Assembly (NCBI GenBank): GCA_027491255.1
Contig: JAIXWM010000129.1
Span: 1-64,000 of the forward strand
From: Rubrivivax sp.
Lineage (GTDB): Bacteria; Pseudomonadota; Gammaproteobacteria; Burkholderiales; Burkholderiaceae_C
DNA: 64,000 nt
Direction of reading: 5' to 3'
This document shows positions 41,979 through 52,536 of the stretch, piece by piece. Under the pieces are notes generated by a model. It did not search any database. It was not told the DNA's origin and saw only the letters and a program-made list of their open reading frames with translations. The translations under genes and the position numbers were made by a program. Position 1 is the stretch's first letter, and the number at the start of each line of letters is the position of its first letter.

Positions 41979-42830
41979 TCAGGACCCTTCGTCGAGCTCG
42001 CGCCGGATCGCGTGAACACCGGCCTGGCGCTGGCGGGCGCGCTCGCCCAGCCGTTCGGCCACATGCTGCACCAGCAGGTGCAGCATGCTGGCGCCGGCCA
42101 TGGCCGAGTAGGCGTGCTCGGCCGAGGCGCCGATGACCGGCAGCACCACCTGCGCCGAGCGCCGTGCCCAGGCGACATTGCGGATGTCGACCACGGCCAC
42201 GATCGGCATGCGCGTGGCCGCCGCGTGCGTCAGCAGGGCGTCCAGCAGCGGCACCCGGGGCTGGGTCTGCACCACCAGCAGGCAGTCGCGCGCCGCCGTC
42301 AGGGCGAGCGCCTCGGCCCACAGCCCGCCGGGGGCCTCGAGCATGAAGACCTCGGGCCGCACCCGCGCCAGCTGCGGCCGCACGAAGCGCGCCAGGCCTT
42401 CGTCGAGCCCCAGGCCGAGCAGCCACAGGCGCGGTGAGCCGGCCACCAGCGCCGCCGCCTCGCGCAGCGTGTCGCCACGCAGGGTCTCGAAAGTGCGCGT
42501 CAGGCTGTCGACCTCGGCGTGCAGATGCTGCGACAGCGAGGGTGCGCCGCGCGCCGGCGGCGGCAGCGTGTCGACCTCGCGCTGGAAAGGCGGTGCGAGG
42601 TTGCGCTCCTGGCGCGCCTGCAGCTTGACCTCGTTGAAGTCCGCATAGCCCAGGCTGCGGAACAGGCGCGCAGCCGTCGCCTTGGACACCCCGGCCATGG
42701 CCGCCATCTCCGAGGCCGAGTAGGCCAGCAGGTCATCGGCGCGGTCGACCAGCAGCGTGGCCAGCCGGCGCTCGCTGGGCGAGAGCTTCTCGAAATGCTC
42801 CTGGATCGCGAGGGTCAGACGGGTCGACAT
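41979..42830 (-). CDS. MurR/RpiR-family transcriptional regulator
   Basis: 283 aa. The N-terminal RpiR helix-turn-helix domain (about 1-77) contains LSPSERRLATLLVDRADDLL, SASEMAAMAGVSKATAARLF and RSLGYADFNEVKLQAR. The C-terminal SIS domain (about 125-265) normally binds a phosphorylated sugar or similar ligand. It diverges from the cycloligase-like/ABC cluster across 211 bp that holds a TGAAA-N6-TTTCA inverted repeat, the usual sort of site for this family. It is therefore the likely local regulator. Confidence 0.9.
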   Translation of the reverse strand: MSTRLTLAIQEHFEKLSPSERRLATLLVDRADDLLAYSASEMAAMAGVSKATAARLFRSLGYADFNEVKLQARQERNLAPPFQREVDTLPPPARGAPSLSQHLHAEVDSLTRTFETLRGDTLREAAALVAGSPRLWLLGLGLDEGLARFVRPQLARVRPEVFMLEAPGGLWAEALALTAARDCLLVVQTQPRVPLLDALLTHAAATRMPIVAVVDIRNVAWARRSAQVVLPVIGASAEHAYSAMAGASMLHLLVQHVAERLGERARQRQAGVHAIRRELDEGS

Positions 42831-42906
42831 CGTGCGTCAGTATCCGGGATCGCAGCGCAGCAGGCCCCGCCGGCGACTTCTCGGGAAAAACCTCGCAGCG
42901 CGACAC

Positions 42907-42946
42907 TGAAACCAAAATTTCATTGAATATACTGTCTGAAACAGAC
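42907..42946. promoter_or_regulatory. AT-rich promoter with two inverted repeats, probable RpiR operator
   Basis: In otherwise GC-rich DNA this region is AT-rich. TGAAA (42907-42911) and TTTCA (42918-42922) form an inverted repeat with a 6-base spacer. TATACT at 42928-42933 is a good -10 hexamer. GTCTGAAACAGAC at 42934-42946 is a perfect 13-base palindrome just after it. The layout suggests a rightward promoter for the cycloligase-like/ABC operon flanked by two operator sites for the divergent RpiR-type regulator. Binding is inferred. Confidence 0.55.
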
Positions 42947-43041
42947 GTGCCGAACCACCAAGGTCCGTGGTCATCCACCACCCAGCCTGCGCCCCCATCG
43001 GCACACCCCGAAACCCCGTCGCCTCGCCGCCCGCCGTCCCG

Positions 43042-43842
43042 ATGCTCCCCAGCGATGCTCCTGCAGACCCCGCCGGCGCCGGTGCGGCGCGGCGCCGCCA
43101 CGAGGTCTGGGACGACCTGCGCGCGGTCGCGCTGCCGGATTCGCGCTTCCACCTGCGCTTTGCCGCCTTCATCCCCGACTTCGAGGGGTCGGCGCAGGCC
43201 GCTGGACGGCTGCTGCCGCGCCTGGGCCTGACGGCGCCCGGGGCCTGCAGCCGGGCGCCGCACGTGATGGTCACGCCCGACAACAGCCTGACGGGGCTGC
43301 GCGAGCAGTTGATCGCGGCCGGCTTCAGCCTCGTCGTGCCGACCTTCAATCTCGCCCGCGGTTTTCGTCACTTCGCACCGAACTCGGTGCCGCCGGGCCA
43401 GGCGCGCTTTGCCTCCTGGCTCGATGGCATCGAGCACTTCGGCGCGCCGGCCCCGCTGGCGGCGCTGGCGGCACTGGGCCGCTTCGATGCCGTGGTCACC
43501 GGCTCGTCGGCGGTGGCGCTGTCGGGCGTGCGCTTCGGCCGCGGTCACGGCTACTTCGACCTGGAATGGCGGATGTTCGCCGAACTCGGCCTCGTCGACG
43601 AGCACACGCCGGTGGCCACGGTCGTGCACGACCTGCAGGTGCTGGAGCGCCCGCTGATGGCCAGCCCTGACGACGTGCCCGTCGACCTGATCGCCACCCC
43701 GACCCGGCTGCTGACCGTGAGCCGACCCCACCCGCGCCCTCGGCGCGTCGACTGGGCGCTGGTCGACGACACGCAGGCCGCTGCCATCCCGCCACTGGAC
43801 GAACTGCGCCGCAGCCTCGGGCTGGCGCCGGCCGCGGCTTGA
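43042..43842 (+). CDS. 5-formyltetrahydrofolate cycloligase-like protein (COG0212 paralogue), copy 1
   Basis: 266 aa from ATG 43042. It resembles the cycloligase paralogue class whose motif is 'R(I/F)GKGeGfaDlEy' rather than the true enzyme's 'GxGGGYYDR': here GVRFGRGHGYFDLEW at residues 162-176. HVMVTPDNSLTGLREQL, a VVTGSSAVALSG strand and a VVHDLQVLERP segment follow the same family. Published comparative genomics tied such paralogues to thiamin metabolism. A second 266-aa copy with the motif at the same residue lies four genes on. True folate cycloligase activity is doubtful. Confidence 0.8.
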   Translation: MLPSDAPADPAGAGAARRRHEVWDDLRAVALPDSRFHLRFAAFIPDFEGSAQAAGRLLPRLGLTAPGACSRAPHVMVTPDNSLTGLREQLIAAGFSLVVPTFNLARGFRHFAPNSVPPGQARFASWLDGIEHFGAPAPLAALAALGRFDAVVTGSSAVALSGVRFGRGHGYFDLEWRMFAELGLVDEHTPVATVVHDLQVLERPLMASPDDVPVDLIATPTRLLTVSRPHPRPRRVDWALVDDTQAAAIPPLDELRRSLGLAPAAA

Positions 43843-43944
43843 ACACGACCGCCCCGGCAAGCCCCTGATCCGCAGCGACTGGCGCCCCCGATCCCGCACC
43901 CTCCTCTTCCCCCCTGTCCCCACCCCTGCCCTGGAGTTCGCACC

Positions 43945-44913
43945 ATGACGCTTTCCCGCCGCCACCTTCTTCACGCCGGCGCCGCTGCCGGCCTGGCCGC
44001 CAGCCCGCTGCTCGGCCGCGCCCAGAACCTGCGCCCGATGACGCTGCAGGCCGCCTGGATCAACGACGCCGAGTTCATGGGCTACTACGTGGCCATGGAG
44101 AAGGGCTGGTACCGCGCCGAGGGCCTGGACCTGAAGTACCTGCCCGGCGGCCCGGACGTCATCCCCGAAGCCTCGGTGCTCTCCAAGAAGGCCGACGTCG
44201 CGCTGTCGACGGTGGAGACCGTGATCAACGCCATCACGACGCAACGCGCACCGCTGGTGATCATCGGCGCGCAGTACCAGAAGAACCCGATCGGCATCGT
44301 CAGCCTGGCGAGCAAGCCTATCCGCACCCCGGCCGACCTGGTGGGCAAGACCGTGGCCGTGCCGCCGGTCAACCGCCTGACGGTGGAGGCCATGCTCAAG
44401 CTCAACGGCATCGACAAGAGCAAGGTCCGCATCGTTCCCTATGCCTACGATCCGACGCCGCTGATCAAGGGCGAGATCGACGCCTCGCTGGACTTCACGA
44501 CCAACGTGCCCTACACGATCAAGACCAAGGGCCAGGACGCGGTGAGCTTCCTGCTGGCCGACTTCAAGCTGCCGCTGTACAACGACGTCGTCGTCGTCAC
44601 CCGCGACACGCTGACGCGCCGCCGCGCCGACCTCGTGGCCTTCCTGCGCGCCAGCCGCAAGGGTTGGGACGAGAACTTCAAGGACCCGGCAGCCTACCCG
44701 CCCAAGTACATGAGCACCTGGTTCAAGGGCACGGGCCGCTCGCTGGACAACGAGGTCTTCTTCAACCGCGCGCAGGCGCCGCTGATCCAGAACCCCAGGG
44801 GCGTGTTCGCGATGACCGCAGAGTCCATCCAGGGCAACATCGACGCCCTCAACGAGGTCGGCGTCAAGGCCTCGAAGGAGCACTTCGACACCTCGCTGCT
44901 GGCCGAGATCTGA
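43945..44913 (+). CDS. ABC transporter substrate-binding protein, NMT1/THI5 (ThiY) type
   Basis: 322 aa. A twin-arginine-like signal (LSRRHLLHAGAAAGLAAS) ends near GRAQN. The NMT1-like body shows WINDAEFMGYYVAMEKGWYR, LDLKYLPGGPDVIPEASV, TPADLVGKTVAVPPVNRLTV and a GEIDASLDFTTNVPYTIK hinge. The family binds HMP-type pyrimidines, but also nitrate, taurine and aromatic ligands; Trp/Tyr-rich 'GYYVAmekGwY' favours the pyrimidine/ThiY branch. ATG 43945 follows CTGGAG. ATPase and permease genes follow. Confidence 0.87.
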   Translation: MTLSRRHLLHAGAAAGLAASPLLGRAQNLRPMTLQAAWINDAEFMGYYVAMEKGWYRAEGLDLKYLPGGPDVIPEASVLSKKADVALSTVETVINAITTQRAPLVIIGAQYQKNPIGIVSLASKPIRTPADLVGKTVAVPPVNRLTVEAMLKLNGIDKSKVRIVPYAYDPTPLIKGEIDASLDFTTNVPYTIKTKGQDAVSFLLADFKLPLYNDVVVVTRDTLTRRRADLVAFLRASRKGWDENFKDPAAYPPKYMSTWFKGTGRSLDNEVFFNRAQAPLIQNPRGVFAMTAESIQGNIDALNEVGVKASKEHFDTSLLAEI

Positions 44914-44947
44914 GCTTGGCCCCCCCTGTGCCTGCAGCCGTCGGCGC

Positions 44948-45754
44948 GTGCCGGCGCCGCCGCCCGTGAGCGCGCGCGGGATCCGCATCGAGGCGGTCGA
45001 GCGCCGCTTCGAGCGCCCCGGGCAGGCGCCCGTGCTGGCGCTGGACCAGGTCAGCCTGGACCTGCCCGCAGGCTCCTTCACGGCGCTGATAGGGCCCTCG
45101 GGTTGCGGCAAGTCGACGCTGCTGCGGCTGGTCGCGGGGCTGGACGAACCTGACGGCGGCACGCTGCAGGTGGGCGGCGCCGCGCCGCGCGTGCTGCAGC
45201 GCCAGGGCCGGCTCGGCATCGCCTTCCAGGACGCCTCGCTGCTGCCCTGGCGCTCGGTGGTCGACAACGTGCGGCTGCCGCTGGACATCACCGGCCAGCG
45301 CGACGCGGCTGCGCGCGAGCGCATCGCCGACCTGGTGGCGCTGGTCGGACTGCAAGGTTTCGAGCAGGCCTTGCCGGCGCAACTGTCGGGCGGCATGCGG
45401 CAGCGCGTCGCGATCGCGCGCGCCCTGGTCACCGAACCCGACGTGCTGCTGCTGGACGAGCCCTTCGGAGCCCTCGACCAGATCCTGCGCCGGACGATGA
45501 ACGTGGAGTTGCAGCGCATCTGGCTGCGCCGCGCGACGACGACGGTGCTGGTGACGCACGGCATCGACGAGGCGGTGTTCCTGGCCGACCGCGTGGTCGT
45601 GATGCAGGGCCAGCCCGGACGCATCGCCGCCGTGATCGACGTGCCCTTCGAGCGTCCGCGACCGCTGGCGCTGTTCGGCGACCCGGCCTTTCGCGCGCTG
45701 GAAGACCAGGTGGCCGGCGTGCTCTACGGCCACGGCCCCGGAGCCGCGGCGTGA
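44948..45754 (+). CDS. ABC transporter ATPase (NMT1/nitrate-taurine type)
   Basis: About 268 aa. Walker A is LIGPSGCGKSTLLRLVAGL, the Q-loop LGIAFQDASLLPWRSVVDNV has the 'LPWrsV.dNV' form of the SsuB/TauB/ThiZ subfamily, the signature is LSGGMRQR, Walker B is VLLLDEPFGALD and the H-loop is VLVTHGIDEAVFLADR. It energises the adjacent permease. Start is GTG 44948 or GTG 44966; no clear ribosome site separates them. Its TGA overlaps the permease GTG start. Confidence 0.92.
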   Translation: MPAPPPVSARGIRIEAVERRFERPGQAPVLALDQVSLDLPAGSFTALIGPSGCGKSTLLRLVAGLDEPDGGTLQVGGAAPRVLQRQGRLGIAFQDASLLPWRSVVDNVRLPLDITGQRDAAARERIADLVALVGLQGFEQALPAQLSGGMRQRVAIARALVTEPDVLLLDEPFGALDQILRRTMNVELQRIWLRRATTTVLVTHGIDEAVFLADRVVVMQGQPGRIAAVIDVPFERPRPLALFGDPAFRALEDQVAGVLYGHGPGAAA

Positions 45755-47361
45755 CGGCCGCCGTGGGCGCGGCCCGCCGCGGCACCGTCTTCGGCCTGCT
45801 GCTGCTCTTGCTGGGCTGGGAGGCCGCCGGCCGCGGCGGCTGGGTGGCCGGCGGCGCGTTGCCCGCGCCGAGCCAGATCGCGCTGCAGGCCTGGGCGGAC
45901 CGGGCCGACTACCCCGCCCATGTGCTGGGCACGCTGCGCACCGCAGCCGCCGGCTTCGCGCTCGGCAGCCTGCTCGGGCTGGCGCTGGGCCTGGCCTATG
46001 TGCGTTGGCCGCGCCTGCAGCGGGTGATGGCCGGCGTGGACGTCACCGTGTTTGCGATGCCGGCCATCGCGCTCGTGCCCATCCTGATCATCGCGCTGCC
46101 CGGCGACGCCCCGCGCGTGGTGCTGTCGGCGCTGTCGGTGTACTACCCGGTCATGGTCGCCGTGGTGCTGGGCCTGCGCCAGACCGACCCCCGCTTGCTC
46201 GACCTGGTGCAGGTCTACGGCGGCGACGCGTTCGCGGCGCTGCGCTGGGTGCGGCTGCGCGGTGGTCTGCCCACCCTCCTGTCGGGCCTGCGCGTGGCTG
46301 CGCCTGCCGCCGTGCTGGGCTCGCTGCTGGCCGAGTTCGGCAGCGGCGCCAGCGCCGGCCTGGGGACCTACCTGATCGGCTCGCTCGGCCGTGCCGACCC
46401 GGCACGGCTGTGGGGCATCGGCCTGGCCGCCACGACACTGAGCGCGCTGGCCTACCTGGCCGTGGGCCTGCTGGCGGGGCGCTTTGCCGGGCACACCGTG
46501 TCGGCATCGACGCCCGTAGGCCAGGCGGCCGACGCTGGCGGCGGCACCCGCGAGGGCGGCGCGCCCCTGGCATGGACCCATCGGACCGGGCGGGCCGCGC
46601 TGGTCCCCCTGATCGCCTTCTTCCTGCCCTTCCTGCTGTGGGAGGCCGGCACCTGGGCGCTGCGCCTGACCGAGGTGTCCGAGGTCGTCTACCGCGACCC
46701 GCTGGGCGTGCTGGAGCACCTGCTGTGGCACGAGACGGCGGCCGAGCACCGCGCCGACCTCGGCAGCGCGCTGGCGCAGACGCTGCCCTTCGCACTCGGC
46801 GGGATGGCCCTCGGGCTGGCGTTCGCCTTTGCGCTGGCCATCGTCTCGCTGCTGTGGCCGCCGCTGGGCGCCACGCTGCTGCCGCTGTCCCTGGTGACGC
46901 AGTCGATGCCGCTGGTGGCGCTGACGCCGCTGGTGGTGCTGGTCTTCGGGCGCGACGCCGGCGGCATCCTGGCCATCACCGTCTCGGTGACCTTCTTCCC
47001 GGCCTTCGTGACCATCGCGCAGGGCCTGGCGCTGGTGCCGCCCGGGCTGCGCGACCTCGTCAGCGCCTGGGGTGGCGACCGCGGCGTGTGGCTGCGCCGC
47101 GTGGCCGTGCCGTGGGCCGCGCCCTACCTGTGCGCTGCGCTGCGCCTGGCCGCGCCGCGCGCGCTGCTGGGCGTGATGATCGCCGAGTGGCTGGCCACCG
47201 GCACCGGCCTGGGCAACCTGCTGAACGAGGCCCGCGGCAGGATGGACTACGGCACGATCTGGAGCGTGGCCGTCGTCTCCGTGGCCGTGGCCGTGGCGCT
47301 GCACGCGGCCGCGGCCGCCCTCGAGCGCCGGGTGCTGCGGCGCTTCGCCTTCGCCCCCTGA
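45751..47361 (+). CDS. ABC transporter permease, two tandem membrane modules fused
   Basis: 536 aa, twice the size of a normal SsuC/ThiX-type permease. Module 1 (about 1-235) and module 2 (about 280-536) each hold about six helices. Each has an EAA-type loop followed by a glycine-rich segment: YGGDAFAALRWVRLRGGLPT then LLAEFGSGASAGLGTYL, and WGGDRGVWLRRVAVPWAAPY then MIAEWLATGTGLGNLL. A polar linker (about 245-280) joins them. One polypeptide thus supplies the whole membrane channel, normally a homodimer. The GTG start overlaps the ATPase stop (GTGA). Confidence 0.92.
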   Translation: MTAAVGAARRGTVFGLLLLLLGWEAAGRGGWVAGGALPAPSQIALQAWADRADYPAHVLGTLRTAAAGFALGSLLGLALGLAYVRWPRLQRVMAGVDVTVFAMPAIALVPILIIALPGDAPRVVLSALSVYYPVMVAVVLGLRQTDPRLLDLVQVYGGDAFAALRWVRLRGGLPTLLSGLRVAAPAAVLGSLLAEFGSGASAGLGTYLIGSLGRADPARLWGIGLAATTLSALAYLAVGLLAGRFAGHTVSASTPVGQAADAGGGTREGGAPLAWTHRTGRAALVPLIAFFLPFLLWEAGTWALRLTEVSEVVYRDPLGVLEHLLWHETAAEHRADLGSALAQTLPFALGGMALGLAFAFALAIVSLLWPPLGATLLPLSLVTQSMPLVALTPLVVLVFGRDAGGILAITVSVTFFPAFVTIAQGLALVPPGLRDLVSAWGGDRGVWLRRVAVPWAAPYLCAALRLAAPRALLGVMIAEWLATGTGLGNLLNEARGRMDYGTIWSVAVVSVAVAVALHAAAAALERRVLRRFAFAP

Positions 47362-47392
47362 ACCGATGCCCTCGACGCATCTGGAGAACCCG

Positions 47393-48193
47393 ATGAACGC
47401 CCCCCTGCCCACGGCCACGGCTCAGGCCGCTGCCGCACCCGCCGACCACAAGGGTTCGGTTCGCGAACGCGTGTTCCAGGACCTGCGCCGCGTCGCGCTG
47501 CCGGACAGCCGCTTCCATTTCGACTTCGGCGAGTTCATCGCCGACTTCGAAGGCAGCGAGGCCGCGGCGCGGCGCCTGATGGCGCACCCCGCCTGGCAAG
47601 GCTCGCAGGTCGTCTTCATCACCCCCGACAACTGCCTGGAGTGGCTGCGCTGGCAGGCGCTGCTGCAGGGCAGACGCGTGCTCATCACCACCTACTCGAT
47701 CAAGCGCGGCTTCTGGCTGCTGGACCCGGCCGAGATCCCGGCCGACCGCCTGCTGTACGCCGCGACGCTGGACGGCATGGAGCGCCATGCGCGGCCGCTG
47801 ACGCTGGCGCAGATCCGCGCACAGTTGCCACGCCTGGACTGCATGATCACCGGCACCGGCGCGATCAACGAGGAAGGCGTGCGCTTCGGCAAGGGCCATG
47901 GCTTCTTCGACGCCGAGTGGGGCATGCTCTACCGCATCGGCGTGATCGACACCACCACGCCGGCCATCGCCCTCGTCCACGACTGCCAGGTGCTGCGCGA
48001 GACGCTGCACCCCGAGGTCTTCGACACCGTCGCCGACCTGATCTTCACCCCCACCCGCACGATCGAGGTGCACCACCCGCACAAGCCCACCTGCGGCATC
48101 GTCTGGGACCTGCTGGACCCGGTGATGTACGACACCATCCCGCCGCTGCAGGAACTGCGCGCGATGGAGCCGCAACTGCCGCCCCGCGCCTGA
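47393..48193 (+). CDS. 5-formyltetrahydrofolate cycloligase-like protein (COG0212 paralogue), copy 2
   Basis: 266 aa from ATG 47393, which follows CTGGAG; an ATG at 47366 lacks a ribosome site. Same family and length as the copy at 43042-43842. LPDSRFHFDFGEFIADFEGS aligns with LPDSRFHLRFAAFIPDFEGS of copy 1, and the motif GVRFGKGHGFFDAEW is again at residues 162-176. TPDNCLEWLRWQAL, VHDCQVL and FTPTRTIEVHHPHKPTCGI are better preserved than in copy 1. The two may form a heteromer or act in sequence. It links the importer to the deaminase gene that follows. Confidence 0.85.
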   Translation: MNAPLPTATAQAAAAPADHKGSVRERVFQDLRRVALPDSRFHFDFGEFIADFEGSEAAARRLMAHPAWQGSQVVFITPDNCLEWLRWQALLQGRRVLITTYSIKRGFWLLDPAEIPADRLLYAATLDGMERHARPLTLAQIRAQLPRLDCMITGTGAINEEGVRFGKGHGFFDAEWGMLYRIGVIDTTTPAIALVHDCQVLRETLHPEVFDTVADLIFTPTRTIEVHHPHKPTCGIVWDLLDPVMYDTIPPLQELRAMEPQLPPRA

Positions 48194-48251
48194 GCGGCCG
48201 AGCGTCTTTCCCCCGATCCCCGCTTTTCCTGGCTTGCCCGCCTTGCCCGCC

Positions 48252-49322
48252 ATGACCACGATGCCGCCCCCACCCGCCGCGCTGCAGCGGCTGCCGCGCG
48301 AACGCCTGCCGGACCTGCTGGCGCGCATGCCGAAGGCCGAGCTGCACCTGCACATCGAGGGTTCGCTCGAGCCCGAGCTCATCTTCGCGCTGGCGCAGCG
48401 CAACGGCGTGTCGCTGCCTTATGCGTCGGTGCAGGCGCTGCGCGCGGCCTACGCCTTCACCGACCTGCAGAGCTTTCTCGACATCTACTACGCGGGCGCC
48501 TCGGTGCTGCTGCACGAGGCCGACTTCTGCGACATGGCGATGGCCTACTTCCGTCGCGCAGCCGCCGACGGCGTGGTCCACGCCGAGCTGTTCTTCGACC
48601 CGCAGACCCACACCGCGCGCGGCGTGTCGATGGGCGCAGTGATCGAGGGTCTGGCACGCGCGCAGGCGCAGGCGCAGCGCGAACTCGGCATCTCGAGCGC
48701 CCTGATCCTGTGCTTCCTGCGCCACCTCAGCGAGGAAGACGCCTTCGCGACGCTGCAGGCGGCCCTGCCCTGGCGGGCGCAATTCATCGGCGTCGGGCTC
48801 GACTCCAGCGAACGCGGGCACCCGCCGGAGAAGTTCTCACGCGTGTTCGCGCGCTGTCGCGAACTCGGCCTGCGCATCGTGGCGCACGCCGGCGAGGAAG
48901 GCCCGCCCGCCTACATCCGCACCGCGCTCGACGACCTGCGCGTGCAGCGCATCGACCACGGCGTGCGCTGCGTCGACGACCCGGCGCTGGTGACCGAGCT
49001 GGTGCGCCGGCGCGTGCCGCTGACGGTGTGCCCGCTGTCCAACGTCAAACTGTGCGTCTACCGGCGCATGGAAGATCACGTCCTGCCGCAGTTGCTGAGC
49101 GCCGGCCTGTGCGTGACCGTCAACTCCGACGATCCGGCCTATTTCGGCGGCTATGTGCTGGACAACTACCGCGCCCTGTTCGCGGCGCACCCCACGCTCG
49201 GCCCGCGTGAAGCCTGGCAACTGGCGGCCAACAGCTTCGAGGCGAGCTTCGTCGACGCAGCGGCCCGTGACCGTGGCCTGGCAGCCCTGGCGGCCGTGGT
49301 CGAAAGCCTGGCTTCGGACTGA
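48252..49322 (+). CDS. adenosine/adenine deaminase family protein (adenine-deaminase type)
   Basis: 356 aa metal-dependent deaminase. The motifs are KAELHLHIEGSLEPEL (metal His32 and His34), VVHAELFFDPQTH, IVAHAGEEGPP (catalytic Glu), QRIDHGVRCVDD, CPLSNVKLCVY and TVNSDDPAYFGGY (metal Asp). 'HIEGSLEPEL' and the 'SNvKLcVy' form are those of adenine deaminases (Aah1-like; a Pseudomonas homologue has been shown to act on adenine) rather than adenosine deaminases with 'HLDGalrp'. Adenine to hypoxanthine is the default prediction. In this cluster a related aminopyrimidine is also possible. Confidence 0.88.
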   Translation: MTTMPPPPAALQRLPRERLPDLLARMPKAELHLHIEGSLEPELIFALAQRNGVSLPYASVQALRAAYAFTDLQSFLDIYYAGASVLLHEADFCDMAMAYFRRAAADGVVHAELFFDPQTHTARGVSMGAVIEGLARAQAQAQRELGISSALILCFLRHLSEEDAFATLQAALPWRAQFIGVGLDSSERGHPPEKFSRVFARCRELGLRIVAHAGEEGPPAYIRTALDDLRVQRIDHGVRCVDDPALVTELVRRRVPLTVCPLSNVKLCVYRRMEDHVLPQLLSAGLCVTVNSDDPAYFGGYVLDNYRALFAAHPTLGPREAWQLAANSFEASFVDAAARDRGLAALAAVVESLASD

Positions 49323-49431: not shown

Positions 49432-49463
49432 CGTCCGTGTCGGCGATGCCGATCCCGGTTTTC

Positions 49464-49487
49464 GTATTCCCCCCCCCACTTGAATAC
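49464..49487. repeat. inverted repeat in the leader of the sugar ABC operon
   Basis: GTATTC (49464-49469) and GAATAC (49482-49487) are perfect inverted arms around a C-rich 12-base spacer, just before the GAGGAG ribosome site of the binding-protein gene. It could be a leader hairpin or a second regulator's site. Confidence 0.35.
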
Positions 49488-49502
49488 ATGCGAGGAGATG
49501 TC

Positions 49503-50738
49503 ATGAAGCGTCACGTGATCGCTGCGGCTGCGGCCGGCCTGCTGGCCACCGGCGGGGCCTGGGCCCAGTCGGTGGAGGTGCTGCACTGGTGGACGTCCGG
49601 CGGCGAGGCGGCCGCACTCGGCGTGCTGAAGAAGGACCTGGAGAAGCAGGGCGTGGCCTGGAAGGACATGCCCGTGGCCGGCGGCGGCGGCGAGGCGGCG
49701 ATGACCTCGCTGCGCGCGCGTGTGACGGCCAAGAACCCGCCCACCGCGGTGCAGATGCTGGGCTTCGACATCCAGGACTGGGCCAAGCAGGGCGCGCTGG
49801 GCGACCTGAACGCGCTGGCCGCCAAGGAAGGCTGGGACAAGACCGTGCCCGCCGCTCTGCAGGCCTTCTCCAAGCACAACGGCAAGTGGATCGCCGCGCC
49901 GGTGAACGTGCACTCCACCAACTGGGTGTGGGCCAACCGCGAGGTGCTGGCCAAGGCCGGCGTGAACGCCGCGCCCGCAAACTGGGACGCCTTCGTCGAC
50001 GCGCTGGATAAGGTGCAGAAGGCCGGCTTCGTCGCGCTGGCCCACGGCGGCCAGGCCTGGCAGGAGGCCACGATCTTCGACGGTGTGGTGCTCGCCACCG
50101 GCGGCGTGGACTTCTACAGGAAGGCGCTGGTCAACAAGGACAAGGCATCCCTCGGTTCGGACACGATGAAGCGCGCCTTCGACCGCATGGCGCAGTTGCG
50201 CAAGTACGTCGACAAGGACTTCTCCAACCGCGACTGGAACCTCGCCTCGGCGATGGTGATCCAGGGCAAGGCCGGCTTCCAGATCATGGGTGACTGGGCC
50301 AAGGGCGAGTTCATCAACGCCAAGAAGGCCCCCGGCAAGGACTTCCTGTGCTTCCGCGTGCCGGGCACGCAGGGCATGGTGTCGTTCAACTCCGACCAGT
50401 TCGCGATGTTCAACGTCGGCGCCGCCGCCCAGGACGCCCAGATCAAGCTCGCCTCGGCGATCATGAACCCGTCGTTCCAGAGCGCCTTCAACGTCGTCAA
50501 GGGGTCGGTGCCGGCCCGCACCGACGTGCCCGACCGCGCCTTCGACGACTGCGGCAAGAAGGGCATGAAGGACCTGGCCGAAGCCAACACCAAGGGCACG
50601 CTGGTGGGCTCGATGGCGCACGGCCATGCGGTGCCGGCGTCGGTGAAGAACGCCTTCTACGACGTCATCACCCAGCACTTCAACGGCAAGATGGACAGCG
50701 CCGCGGCCGTCAAGGCCATGGTGCAGGCGGCCGAGTGA
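49503..50738 (+). CDS. sugar ABC transporter substrate-binding protein (GtsA-like)
   Basis: 411 aa, signal peptide cleaved near GAWAQS. The mature start [19 protein letters not shown], then [16 protein letters not shown], match the glucose/mannose-binding GtsA subgroup of COG1653. YGFD-type sugar contacts include [32 protein letters not shown] and [12 protein letters not shown]. It delivers a mono- or disaccharide to the permeases encoded next. ATG 49503 follows GAGGAGA. It is preceded by a LacI-type operator and followed by a strong hairpin, so it is probably made in excess over the membrane subunits. Confidence 0.92.
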
Positions 50739-50775
50739 GGCCGCGCTGATCCGGCACAACCGTTGACCGACCGGA

Positions 50776-50797
50776 AAGGGGGCCGCGCGGCCCCCTT
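50776..50797 (+). terminator. strong hairpin between binding-protein and permease genes (partial terminator/RNA stabiliser)
   Basis: A perfect 22-base palindrome (arms 50776-50786 and 50787-50797) folds into a 9-bp, mostly GC stem with a four-base GCGC loop. It lies 13 bases before the permease start. There is no T run. Such structures after the binding-protein gene of ABC operons commonly protect the upstream mRNA and lower expression of the downstream genes. Confidence 0.6.
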
Positions 50798-50809
50798 CCT
50801 TTGCACCCC

Positions 50810-51682
50810 ATGCGCCACCGCTGGCTCCCGACCCTGGTGCTGAGCCCCAGCCTGCTGCTGGTGGGGGCCTGCGTCTACGGCTTCATCGCCTTCACGGTGG
50901 TGCTGTCGTTCACCTCGTCGACGATCCTGCCGCAGTTGCAGTGGAGCGAGCGCAACAACTACGAGCGGCTCTTCGGCCTGTCCACCTTTGCGCTGTCGGC
51001 ACGCAACCTCGGCCTCTTCGCGGCGCTCTACGTCGGCCTGTGCCTGGCGCTCGGGATGCTGCTGGCCATCCTGATCGACCAGAAGATCCGGGCCGAGAAC
51101 GTCTTCCGCTCGATCTTCCTGTACCCGATGGCGCTGTCCTTCATCGTCACCGGCACGGCCTGGAAGTGGCTGCTCGACCCCGGCATCGGCCTGGAGCGCA
51201 CGGTGCGTCTGATGGGCTGGGAGAGCTTCACCTTCGACTGGATCAAGAACGGCGAGATGGCGATCTACACCGTCGTCATCGCCGCCGTCTGGCAGACCAC
51301 GGGCTTCGTGATGGCGCTGTTCCTGGCCGGCCTGCGCGGCATCGACCAGGAGGTGCTGAACGCCGCGCGCGTGGATGGCGCCAGGAGCTGGCGCATCTAC
51401 TGGCGCATCATCATCCCGCAGCTCGGGCCGAGCTTCATCTCGTCCTTCGTGATCCTGGCGCACATGGCGATCAAGAGCTACGACCTCGTGATCGCGCTGA
51501 CCGGCGGCGGCCCCGGACGAGACACCTGGCTGCCCTCGGTCTTCATGTACCAGTTCACCTTCACCCGCAACGAGATGGCGGTGGGCGCGGCCAGCGCGGT
51601 GGTGATGCTGGTGGCGGTGGCCATCGTCGTCGTGCCCTATGTGCGCAGCGAGATCCGCCAGGCCCGCAGGGGCGCGCCGTGA
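50810..51682 (+). CDS. sugar ABC transporter permease (GtsB/MalF type)
   Basis: 290 aa, six helices. The EAA loop NAARVDGARSWRIYWRIIIP (about 185-204) contacts the ATPase. The N-terminus LPTLVLSPSLLLVGACVYGF and LTGGGPGRDTWLPSVFMYQ are typical of MalF-type CUT1 permeases without the large periplasmic loop. ATG 50810 is preferred over TTG 50801. The end overlaps the next permease start (GTGA). Confidence 0.93.
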   Translation: MRHRWLPTLVLSPSLLLVGACVYGFIAFTVVLSFTSSTILPQLQWSERNNYERLFGLSTFALSARNLGLFAALYVGLCLALGMLLAILIDQKIRAENVFRSIFLYPMALSFIVTGTAWKWLLDPGIGLERTVRLMGWESFTFDWIKNGEMAIYTVVIAAVWQTTGFVMALFLAGLRGIDQEVLNAARVDGARSWRIYWRIIIPQLGPSFISSFVILAHMAIKSYDLVIALTGGGPGRDTWLPSVFMYQFTFTRNEMAVGAASAVVMLVAVAIVVVPYVRSEIRQARRGAP

Positions 51683-52536
51683 AGAACGGGCTGCGACCCG
51701 AGCGCGTGCTGCTGTACGCGGTGCTGGGCTTCGTCGCGCTGGTCTTCCTGGCGCCCATCTACGTGATGGTCGTCAACTCGGTCAAGCCGCTGGACGAGAT
51801 CCGTGCCGGCAACCTGGTTGCGCTGCCACTCGAGCCCACCTTCGAGCCCTGGCTGCAGGCCTGGAGCCGGGCGCAGATCGGCGTGCAGGCCACGGGGCTG
51901 GCGCCCTACTTCATGAATTCCTTCCTGATGGTGGTGCCGGCGGTCGTGCTGTCCACCGCCATCGGCGCCCTCAACGGCTACGTGCTGACGCAGTTCAAGG
52001 TGCGCGGCGCCACGCTGATCTTCGGGCTGCTGCTGTTCTCGGTCTTCATCCCCTTCCAGATCGTCCTGATCCCGATGGCGCGGCTGCTCGGCGAACTCGG
52101 CCTGGCGGGTACGGTCAGCGGCCTGGTCTTCGTGCACACGGTCTACGGCATCGGCTTCGGCACGCTGTTCTTCCGCAACTTCTACGCCGCCTTCCCGCCC
52201 GAGCTGGTGAAGTCGGCGCGCATGGACGGCGCGGGCTTCTTCGTGCTGTTCTGGCGCCTGATGCTGCCCAACAGCCTGCCCATCATCGTCGTCAACGTGA
52301 TCTGGCAGTTCACCAACATCTGGAACGACTTCCTGTTCGGCGCCTCGTTCAGCGACTACTCGTCGTTCCCGCTGACGGTGGCGCTGAACAACCTGGTCAG
52401 CAGCTCCACGGGCGTCAAGGAATACAACGTGCACTTCGCCGGGGCCTTCATCGCGGCGCTGCCCACGCTGCTGGTCTACGTGCTGTCGGGCAAGTACTTC
52501 GTGCGCGGCCTGATGGCCGGCTCGGTCAAGGGTTGA
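51679..52536 (+). CDS. sugar ABC transporter permease (GtsC/MalG type)
   Basis: 285 aa MalG-type subunit. It has FLAPIYVMVVNSVKPLDEIR near the N-terminus, the EAA loop VKSARMDGAGFFVLFWRLML, and FTNIWNDFLFGASFSDYSSF, which is well conserved in CUT1 permeases. The start is GTG 51679, overlapping the upstream stop. It pairs with the MalF-type permease and the MsmK-type ATPase encoded on either side. Confidence 0.93.
   Translation: MKNGLRPERVLLYAVLGFVALVFLAPIYVMVVNSVKPLDEIRAGNLVALPLEPTFEPWLQAWSRAQIGVQATGLAPYFMNSFLMVVPAVVLSTAIGALNGYVLTQFKVRGATLIFGLLLFSVFIPFQIVLIPMARLLGELGLAGTVSGLVFVHTVYGIGFGTLFFRNFYAAFPPELVKSARMDGAGFFVLFWRLMLPNSLPIIVVNVIWQFTNIWNDFLFGASFSDYSSFPLTVALNNLVSSSTGVKEYNVHFAGAFIAALPTLLVYVLSGKYFVRGLMAGSVKG

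Follow-up and report, generated by a model that had tools for sequence, protein, structure and literature searches.

In a 64,000-nucleotide stretch of Rubrivivax sp. DNA (GenBank assembly GCA_027491255.1, contig JAIXWM010000129.1; hereafter the window) we analysed a cassette at 41979–49322 comprising a minus-strand RpiR-type regulator and six plus-strand genes. The latter encode two COG0212-type proteins (CLA and CLB) that flank the NMT1-type receptor, ATPase and fused permease of an ATP-binding cassette (ABC) importer, and an adenine-deaminase-type enzyme. Our tentative best explanation, to which we give a probability of about 0.38, is a self-contained, locally regulated uptake-and-salvage system for a 4-aminopyrimidine-type compound bearing a formamido (N-formyl) group, which would be processed by ATP-dependent chemistry resembling that of 5-formyltetrahydrofolate cycloligase (5-FCL). 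We infer the ligand, the reaction and the direction of regulation from context.

A first-pass annotation, made from the letters alone, had described six rightward genes diverging from an RpiR regulator, with twin 266-residue proteins on either side of the importer and a deaminase at the end. Open reading frame positions and Pfam agree with it for all seven genes (Table 1), with each match above its cut-off (HTH_6 plus SIS, 5-FTHF_cyc-lig twice, NMT1, ABC_tran, BPD_transp_1 and A_deaminase). The GVRFG motif stands at residue 162 of both twins when they are counted from the ATG codons at 43042 and 47393, as are their lengths; the open frames themselves begin at 42967 and 47366. The plus-strand genes are separated by 102 and 34 bases, overlap by 4, and are again separated by 4 or 31 (depending on the CLB start) and 40 bases, a close spacing that suggests, short of proof, a single transcript.

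The gene set is conserved well beyond the window. A carrier scan for relatives of CLB, taking one genome per species, yielded 65 loci; being built on CLB peptide patterns, it under-samples distant carriers. The six core genes (RpiR, CLA, receptor, ATPase, fused permease and CLB) are present and syntenic in 55 of the 65, so the gene order, on which the first-pass annotation had staked its case, is not due to chance. The complete loci are spread over several proteobacterial orders, and record titles place among the carriers members of Burkholderiales, Salinicola, Rhizobium and its relatives, Devosia, Cohaesibacter, Pelagibacterium and Rhodobacteraceae, as well as Brucella (B. tritici and B. pseudintermedia, for example). 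Six of the ten incomplete loci reach contig ends (L019, L020, L022, L062, L066 and L068), two are without the upstream RpiR and CLA (L005 and L008), and CLB stands by itself in the remaining two (L032 and L061). A simpler form, with RpiR, a single COG0212 protein, receptor, ATPase and fused permease, occurs in Roseinatronobacter (L069) and in two whole genomes (L082 and L084).

The cassette is also rare. Only one of 250 Burkholderiales genomes, the window's own, has a CLB relative. Such a relative was found in 7 of 72,556 plasmid records, and a COG0212-type protein in 3 of 398 Pseudomonadota genomes when at most six candidates were scored per genome. Rarity, wide scatter and constant content together suggest horizontal spread. 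The genes flanking the core differ between loci. We tried to read the pathway from them and gave this up, since the scanned neighbours are mostly unrelated; the six genes therefore look self-contained.

The COG0212 proteins, found in every domain of life, are routinely named 5-FCL, and we know of no established reaction for them. CLA and CLB are 43% identical; their equal length means little, since many relatives measure about 245–256 residues and have variable N-termini. Both carry the PF01812 domain and the glycine-rich loop (GRGHGYFD and GKGHGFFD) of 5-formyltetrahydrofolate cyclo-ligase (MTHFS), whose fold is predicted to be conserved in CLB, but they are longer, fall in separate clades and score only 24.1 and 22.9 bits against TIGR02727, the bacterial 5-FCL model with a cut-off of 84.9 bits. 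In a tree that included archaeal, fungal and BMP-linked relatives (the plant protein At1g76730 was not among the rows), seven true 5-FCLs lie on one side and 59 COG0212-type proteins on the other (support 100/100), and the twins stand apart from the folate enzyme, as the first-pass annotation had anticipated. CLB forms its own clade (100/99), and the single COG0212 protein of the simpler cassettes groups with CLA (99/98); judged from this tree, the twins represent two old clades far from true 5-FCL. All 18 carrier genomes searched encode a further, better-scoring PF01812 protein (79–155 bits), and the seven of these that were placed in the tree are true 5-FCLs, so the folate role looks to be filled already.

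Two metagenomic proteins (P0138, 505 residues; P0169, 493 residues) consist of two fused COG0212 domains, the first more CLA-like and the second more CLB-like by BLAST, which suggests that the twins act together; the placement of the halves in the tree is not firm. Sister to the CLB clade are two fungal COG0212 proteins, from Gnomoniopsis (P0205) and Mollisia (P0207), 60% and 51% identical to CLB.

The regulator is likely a local one. The gap between RpiR and CLA contains an operator-like palindrome, TGAAAC-N4-ATTTCA, found in its exact form nowhere else in the window; with up to one mismatch there are three matches in total, against 0.08 expected. Among 52 relatives whose corresponding gap was compared (three single-COG0212 loci and 49 of the 55 complete ones), 45 contain TGAAACNNNNRTTYCA or its complement exactly, with 0.005 expected per shuffling round, and by eye the remaining seven gaps hold near forms. 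Across 15 carrier genomes the pattern gave 37 matches (palindromes counted twice) against 24 for a reversed control pattern, and it is this scarcity of other sites that makes the regulator look local; about 15 places lie outside cassettes, and the search found no further regulon member, those places being left unread. Perfect TGAAAC-N4-GTTTCA palindromes stand outside the cassette at three loci (L090, L103 and L107, in genomes G632, G631 and G626).

The receptor, which by eye begins with an RR-type signal, carries the conserved motifs W-x-N-D-A-E-F and G-G-P-D-V-I-P-E. By Foldseek its predicted fold is closest to thiamin- and formylaminopyrimidine (FAMP)-bound receptors, with the top similarity to 3ix1 and 4nmy; no purine-bound NMT1-type receptor was among the 50 matches listed, which says nothing against one. 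In sequence, its closest relatives adjoin genes for purine deaminases. The closest COG0212-free transporter among plasmid records, that of Rhizobium sp. ACO-34A (L152, 3191–12320; receptor 48%, ATPase 61% and fused permease 45% identical, with an N-D-x-E-F motif common to both receptors), lies beside a cytidine/guanine-type deaminase, a PF00962 deaminase, an isochorismatase-type hydrolase and an FMN oxidoreductase. In Nonomuraea a 35% identical relative has as neighbours PucR, an amidohydrolase and a deaminase that shares 58% identity with that of the window, and Rut pyrimidine genes accompany a 32% relative.

The deaminase itself is, by sequence, adenine-deaminase-like, as had been proposed (541.8 bits on NF006850, cut-off 419). 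Its closest chains are 3ou8 (E 1.2e-112) and 3rys (E 7.9e-110); the former, which its depositors name adenosine deaminase, we take to be the adenine deaminase PA0148. It directly follows CLB in 15 of the 65 loci, all of betaproteobacterial type (counting L005, a metagenome-assembled genome (MAG) labelled Rhodospirillales), and is best regarded as an accessory; in Salinicola salarius a deaminase gene is found on the far side of RpiR, some 4 kb away. Four PF00962 proteins are encoded in the window's genome, and in five other carriers (G625, G626, G638, G639 and G640) the cassette-adjoining one is the only one.

A 4-aminopyrimidine with a formamido group is chemistry common to the thiamin line (FAMP) and the purine line (formamidopyrimidines), and 5-FCL acts on an N-formyl group such as formamido-aminopyrimidines carry; from these two points we propose uptake of a formamido-aminopyrimidine. 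The receptor would capture the compound, the ATPase and fused permease would bring it into the cell, and the twins would use ATP to phosphorylate the formyl oxygen in the manner of 5-FCL, whereupon the neighbouring nitrogen would close the ring. The leading candidate substrate would be a ring-opened purine (a formamidopyrimidine), closure of which would yield adenine or guanine; in cassettes with a terminal deaminase, adenine would go on to hypoxanthine. Binding of RpiR to the TGAAAC palindrome would switch the gene set. Two considerations give the ring-opened purine a slight lead: the links to deaminases, and the broad usefulness of adenine, which any carrier could in principle use, whereas the thiamin pyrimidine would not help a carrier that has no ThiE. 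The specific proposal that CLA and CLB are ATP-dependent formamidopyrimidine cycloligases re-closing imported ring-opened purines to adenine or guanine, with the thiamin-linked COG0212 members acting on FAMP or ring-opened thiamin, strikes us as improbable; if true, it would amount to a way of salvaging damaged bases and would account for the COG0212 family.

Several observations weigh against salvage of a formamido-aminopyrimidine, and of a purine in particular. We know of no formamidopyrimidine importer. Two of 18 carrier genomes (G631 and G634) have no PF00962 protein and a third (G635) has only a 28-bit match. Receptor relatives at 32–36% identity with a fused-length permease sit in lipid-type clusters, so the branch extends beyond bases. 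A thi gene stands on the CLB side in all five Salinicola loci: thiC with a thiamin pyrophosphate (TPP) riboswitch adjoins CLB in three, thiC lies about 6 kb off in a fourth, and in Salinicola aestuarinus, where no ThiC was found, a TPP-riboswitch tenA adjoins CLB. The portions of PMC3223725 and PMC4120688 available to us describe COG0212 as thiamin-linked, which favours a thiamin compound.

These last points lead to thiamin salvage, in which the receptor would import damaged thiamin or a breakdown product such as FAMP and the twins would convert it to thiamin or hydroxymethylpyrimidine (HMP), with the greatest gain for hosts unable to make the pyrimidine. We hold this to be somewhat unlikely. 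In its favour, besides Salinicola and the thiamin- and FAMP-bound structures that rank first for the predicted receptor fold, a BMP-linked COG0212 relative in Roseicitreum adjoins a TPP-riboswitch thi operon. ThiC is depleted among carriers: 18 of 56 have it (5 of 18 and 13 of 38 in the two sets combined) against 318 of 398 Pseudomonadota (Fisher p = 1.6e-12), a comparison that counts related genomes as independent. The count leaves out one plasmid record and two genomes with a solitary CLB, of which one has ThiC and the other does not, and omitting the three of the 398 that are themselves carriers changes little. The depletion persists outside MAGs (16 of 33 against 270 of 338 good-quality genomes; p = 2.7e-4); by record title, 21 of the 38 ThiC-less carriers are MAGs. 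By group, ThiC is mostly present in Rhizobium carriers and absent from the searched carriers in Brucella, Devosia and Cohaesibacter and from the searched Comamonadaceae MAGs. ThiG is less informative: among 19 genomes or records it exceeds its cut-off in 10, one of them with a 23-bit partial match.

The window's genome is among those without ThiC, none having been found in its assembly, which is 98% complete. Elsewhere in it (L112, G000 contig C77, 3583–9344) a TPP riboswitch precedes an SSF symporter close to genes for ThiD, ThiG, ThiE and a ThiO-like protein; we predict from this gene content that it is a thiamin-pyrimidine auxotroph.

Set against this, 21 of the 38 ThiC-less carriers are without a strong ThiE (13 have no match and eight score 20–73 bits, weak matches that may be a paralogue also found in carriers with a strong ThiE; the other 17 score at least 136 bits), so HMP is probably useless to them. 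Eighteen of these 21 are MAGs; G550, G475 and Pelagibacterium montanilacus are the exceptions. All but one of the 21 have a TPP riboswitch, which in 19 of these 20 stands before a ThiB-type thiamin receptor (seven tested with NCBIfam, the other twelve assigned to those by BLAST), so such carriers already import thiamin. These carriers weaken the simple reading of the cassette as an HMP importer, and pyrimidine supply alone is insufficient to explain it, though a thiamin link is possible.

The first-pass annotation had seen no THI-box riboswitch, and indeed no Rfam family, the TPP and xanthine (NMT1-motif) riboswitches included, has a match at gathering score in the window. No TPP riboswitch lies on the cassettes of 11 relatives either: Rfam scans of 17 other loci, these 11 among them, gave only TPP and tRNA matches and no NMT1-motif riboswitch, and the TPP matches in these 17 precede thiC, tenA or thi-locus genes. 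With the TPP matches of the other carriers added, ThiB-type and YkoF genes and one TonB receptor also follow such riboswitches, but never the cassette. Chromosomal linkage to thiamin genes is seen at the five Salinicola loci; at the other 60 of the 65, in sequence reaching at most 8 kb on either side, ThiC, ThiD, ThiE, ThiG, ThiO and TenA have no match.

ThiXYZ, whose ThiY is a FAMP/HMP receptor, is another close known system. It and the cassette share an NMT1-type receptor, an ATPase and an SsuC-like permease as well as the similarity to 3ix1 and 4nmy, but the cassette has a fused permease, a receptor only 23% identical to a riboswitch-operon ThiY with a different pocket motif and without the N-x-x-H pattern of that ThiY, and RpiR in place of a TPP riboswitch. 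COG0212 paralogues of 5-FCL have reportedly been associated with thiamin by Pribat et al. 2011. Such an association is also described in the parts of PMC3223725, PMC4120688 and PMC5041015 that we could consult, and the cassette resembles those members in having PF01812 proteins outside the true 5-FCLs, beside transporters and, in Salinicola, near thi genes, as the BMP-linked type is in Roseicitreum. It differs in its two diverged members flanking one importer, its RpiR with operator, and the want of a nearby thi gene in most loci. A literature search found no paper on this gene set; Pribat et al. 2011, possibly showing the arrangement, lay outside that search.

That the cassette simply imports purine or pyrimidine bases for deamination, with the COG0212 pair performing another ATP-dependent step or a regulatory job, is unlikely in our view. 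It would account for the deaminase, purine-regulator and Rut neighbours of related receptors, and the sections of PMC7373994 at our disposal caution that a gene of NMT1/THI5-like type may be part of purine oxidation. The xanthine-riboswitch transporters described there likewise combine an NMT1-type receptor with nearby adenosine or guanine deaminases, but the cassette has no such riboswitch and adds RpiR and the COG0212 twins. Constant in the core and absent from the base-degradation relative in Rhizobium sp. ACO-34A, the twins should matter for the chemistry. Import of nitrate, a sulfonate or an aromatic compound, with the remaining genes as unrelated cargo, is highly improbable, its case being that the best models, all below cut-off, are nitrate ntrCD for the ATPase and SaoP and SsuC for the permease, and that some receptor relatives of about 32% identity lie beside P450 or CoA-transferase genes.

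The first-pass annotation had proposed import and remodelling of an aminopyrimidine, purine or pterin-like compound, and this is supported in part: clues to both thiamin and purines were found, short of proof of the substrate. Having two COG0212 proteins with one receptor, importer and regulator in a single cassette narrows the search for the COG0212 reaction: the receptor lends itself to a ligand screen, and the compound it binds is likely to be the substrate of CLA and CLB. The cassette also bears on the identity of FAMP and aminomethylpyrimidine (AmMP) transporters, named as an open question in the part of PMC10470507 accessible to us.

Table 1. Features of the cassette in the window
Feature	Position	Strand	Basis
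RpiR/MurR-type regulator (HTH_6 + SIS)	41979..42830	-	Pfam; divergent partner in 55/65 loci
Operator-like palindrome TGAAAC-N4-ATTTCA, RpiR–CLA gap	42907..42922	+	exact pattern in 45/52 relatives' gaps
CLA, first COG0212-type (5-FTHF_cyc-lig) protein, 266 aa	43042..43842	+	Pfam; tree clade
NMT1/THI5-like substrate-binding protein (receptor)	43945..44913	+	Pfam; conservation; predicted fold
ABC transporter ATPase	44948..45754	+	Pfam
Fused permease, 536 aa, two BPD_transp_1 stretches in a single protein	45751..47361	+	Pfam
CLB, second COG0212-type protein, 266 aa	47393..48193	+	Pfam; clade 100/99; predicted 5-FCL fold
Adenine-deaminase-type enzyme (PF00962), accessory	48234..49322	+	adjoins CLB in 15/65 loci

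The deaminase start may be internal to the frame that opens at 48234. Downstream of the deaminase, the genes at 49437–52536 look by eye like part of a further ABC importer, with a receptor of sugar type and two permeases; there are no tRNA genes in the window.

Single loci call for brief comment. The cassette genes of L005 are 83–89% identical to those of the window, and this contig is probably misbinned; those of the L063 and L064 assemblies have disrupted frames, perhaps sequencing errors. Directly 3' of CLB in L021 (8801–9301) is a GNAT acetyltransferase gene, with a homologous reading frame likewise placed in L020 and L022; no deaminase adjoins it in any of the three. The solitary CLB of Kaistia hirudinis (L061, 4618–8735) follows a glutamine synthetase gene and a diverged glutamine-synthetase-like gene, and no context shared with the solo CLB of a gammaproteobacterial MAG (L032) was found. 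Rhodobacterales loci L069, L072, L073 and L083 have a second type of COG0212 protein, whose partner is a nucleoside-type ABC importer of the BMP (PnrA-like) kind. On a haloarchaeal plasmid (L070, 7362–9741), a COG0212 gene lies 3' of an SSF symporter that shares 32% identity with the riboswitch-led symporter of the window's genome.

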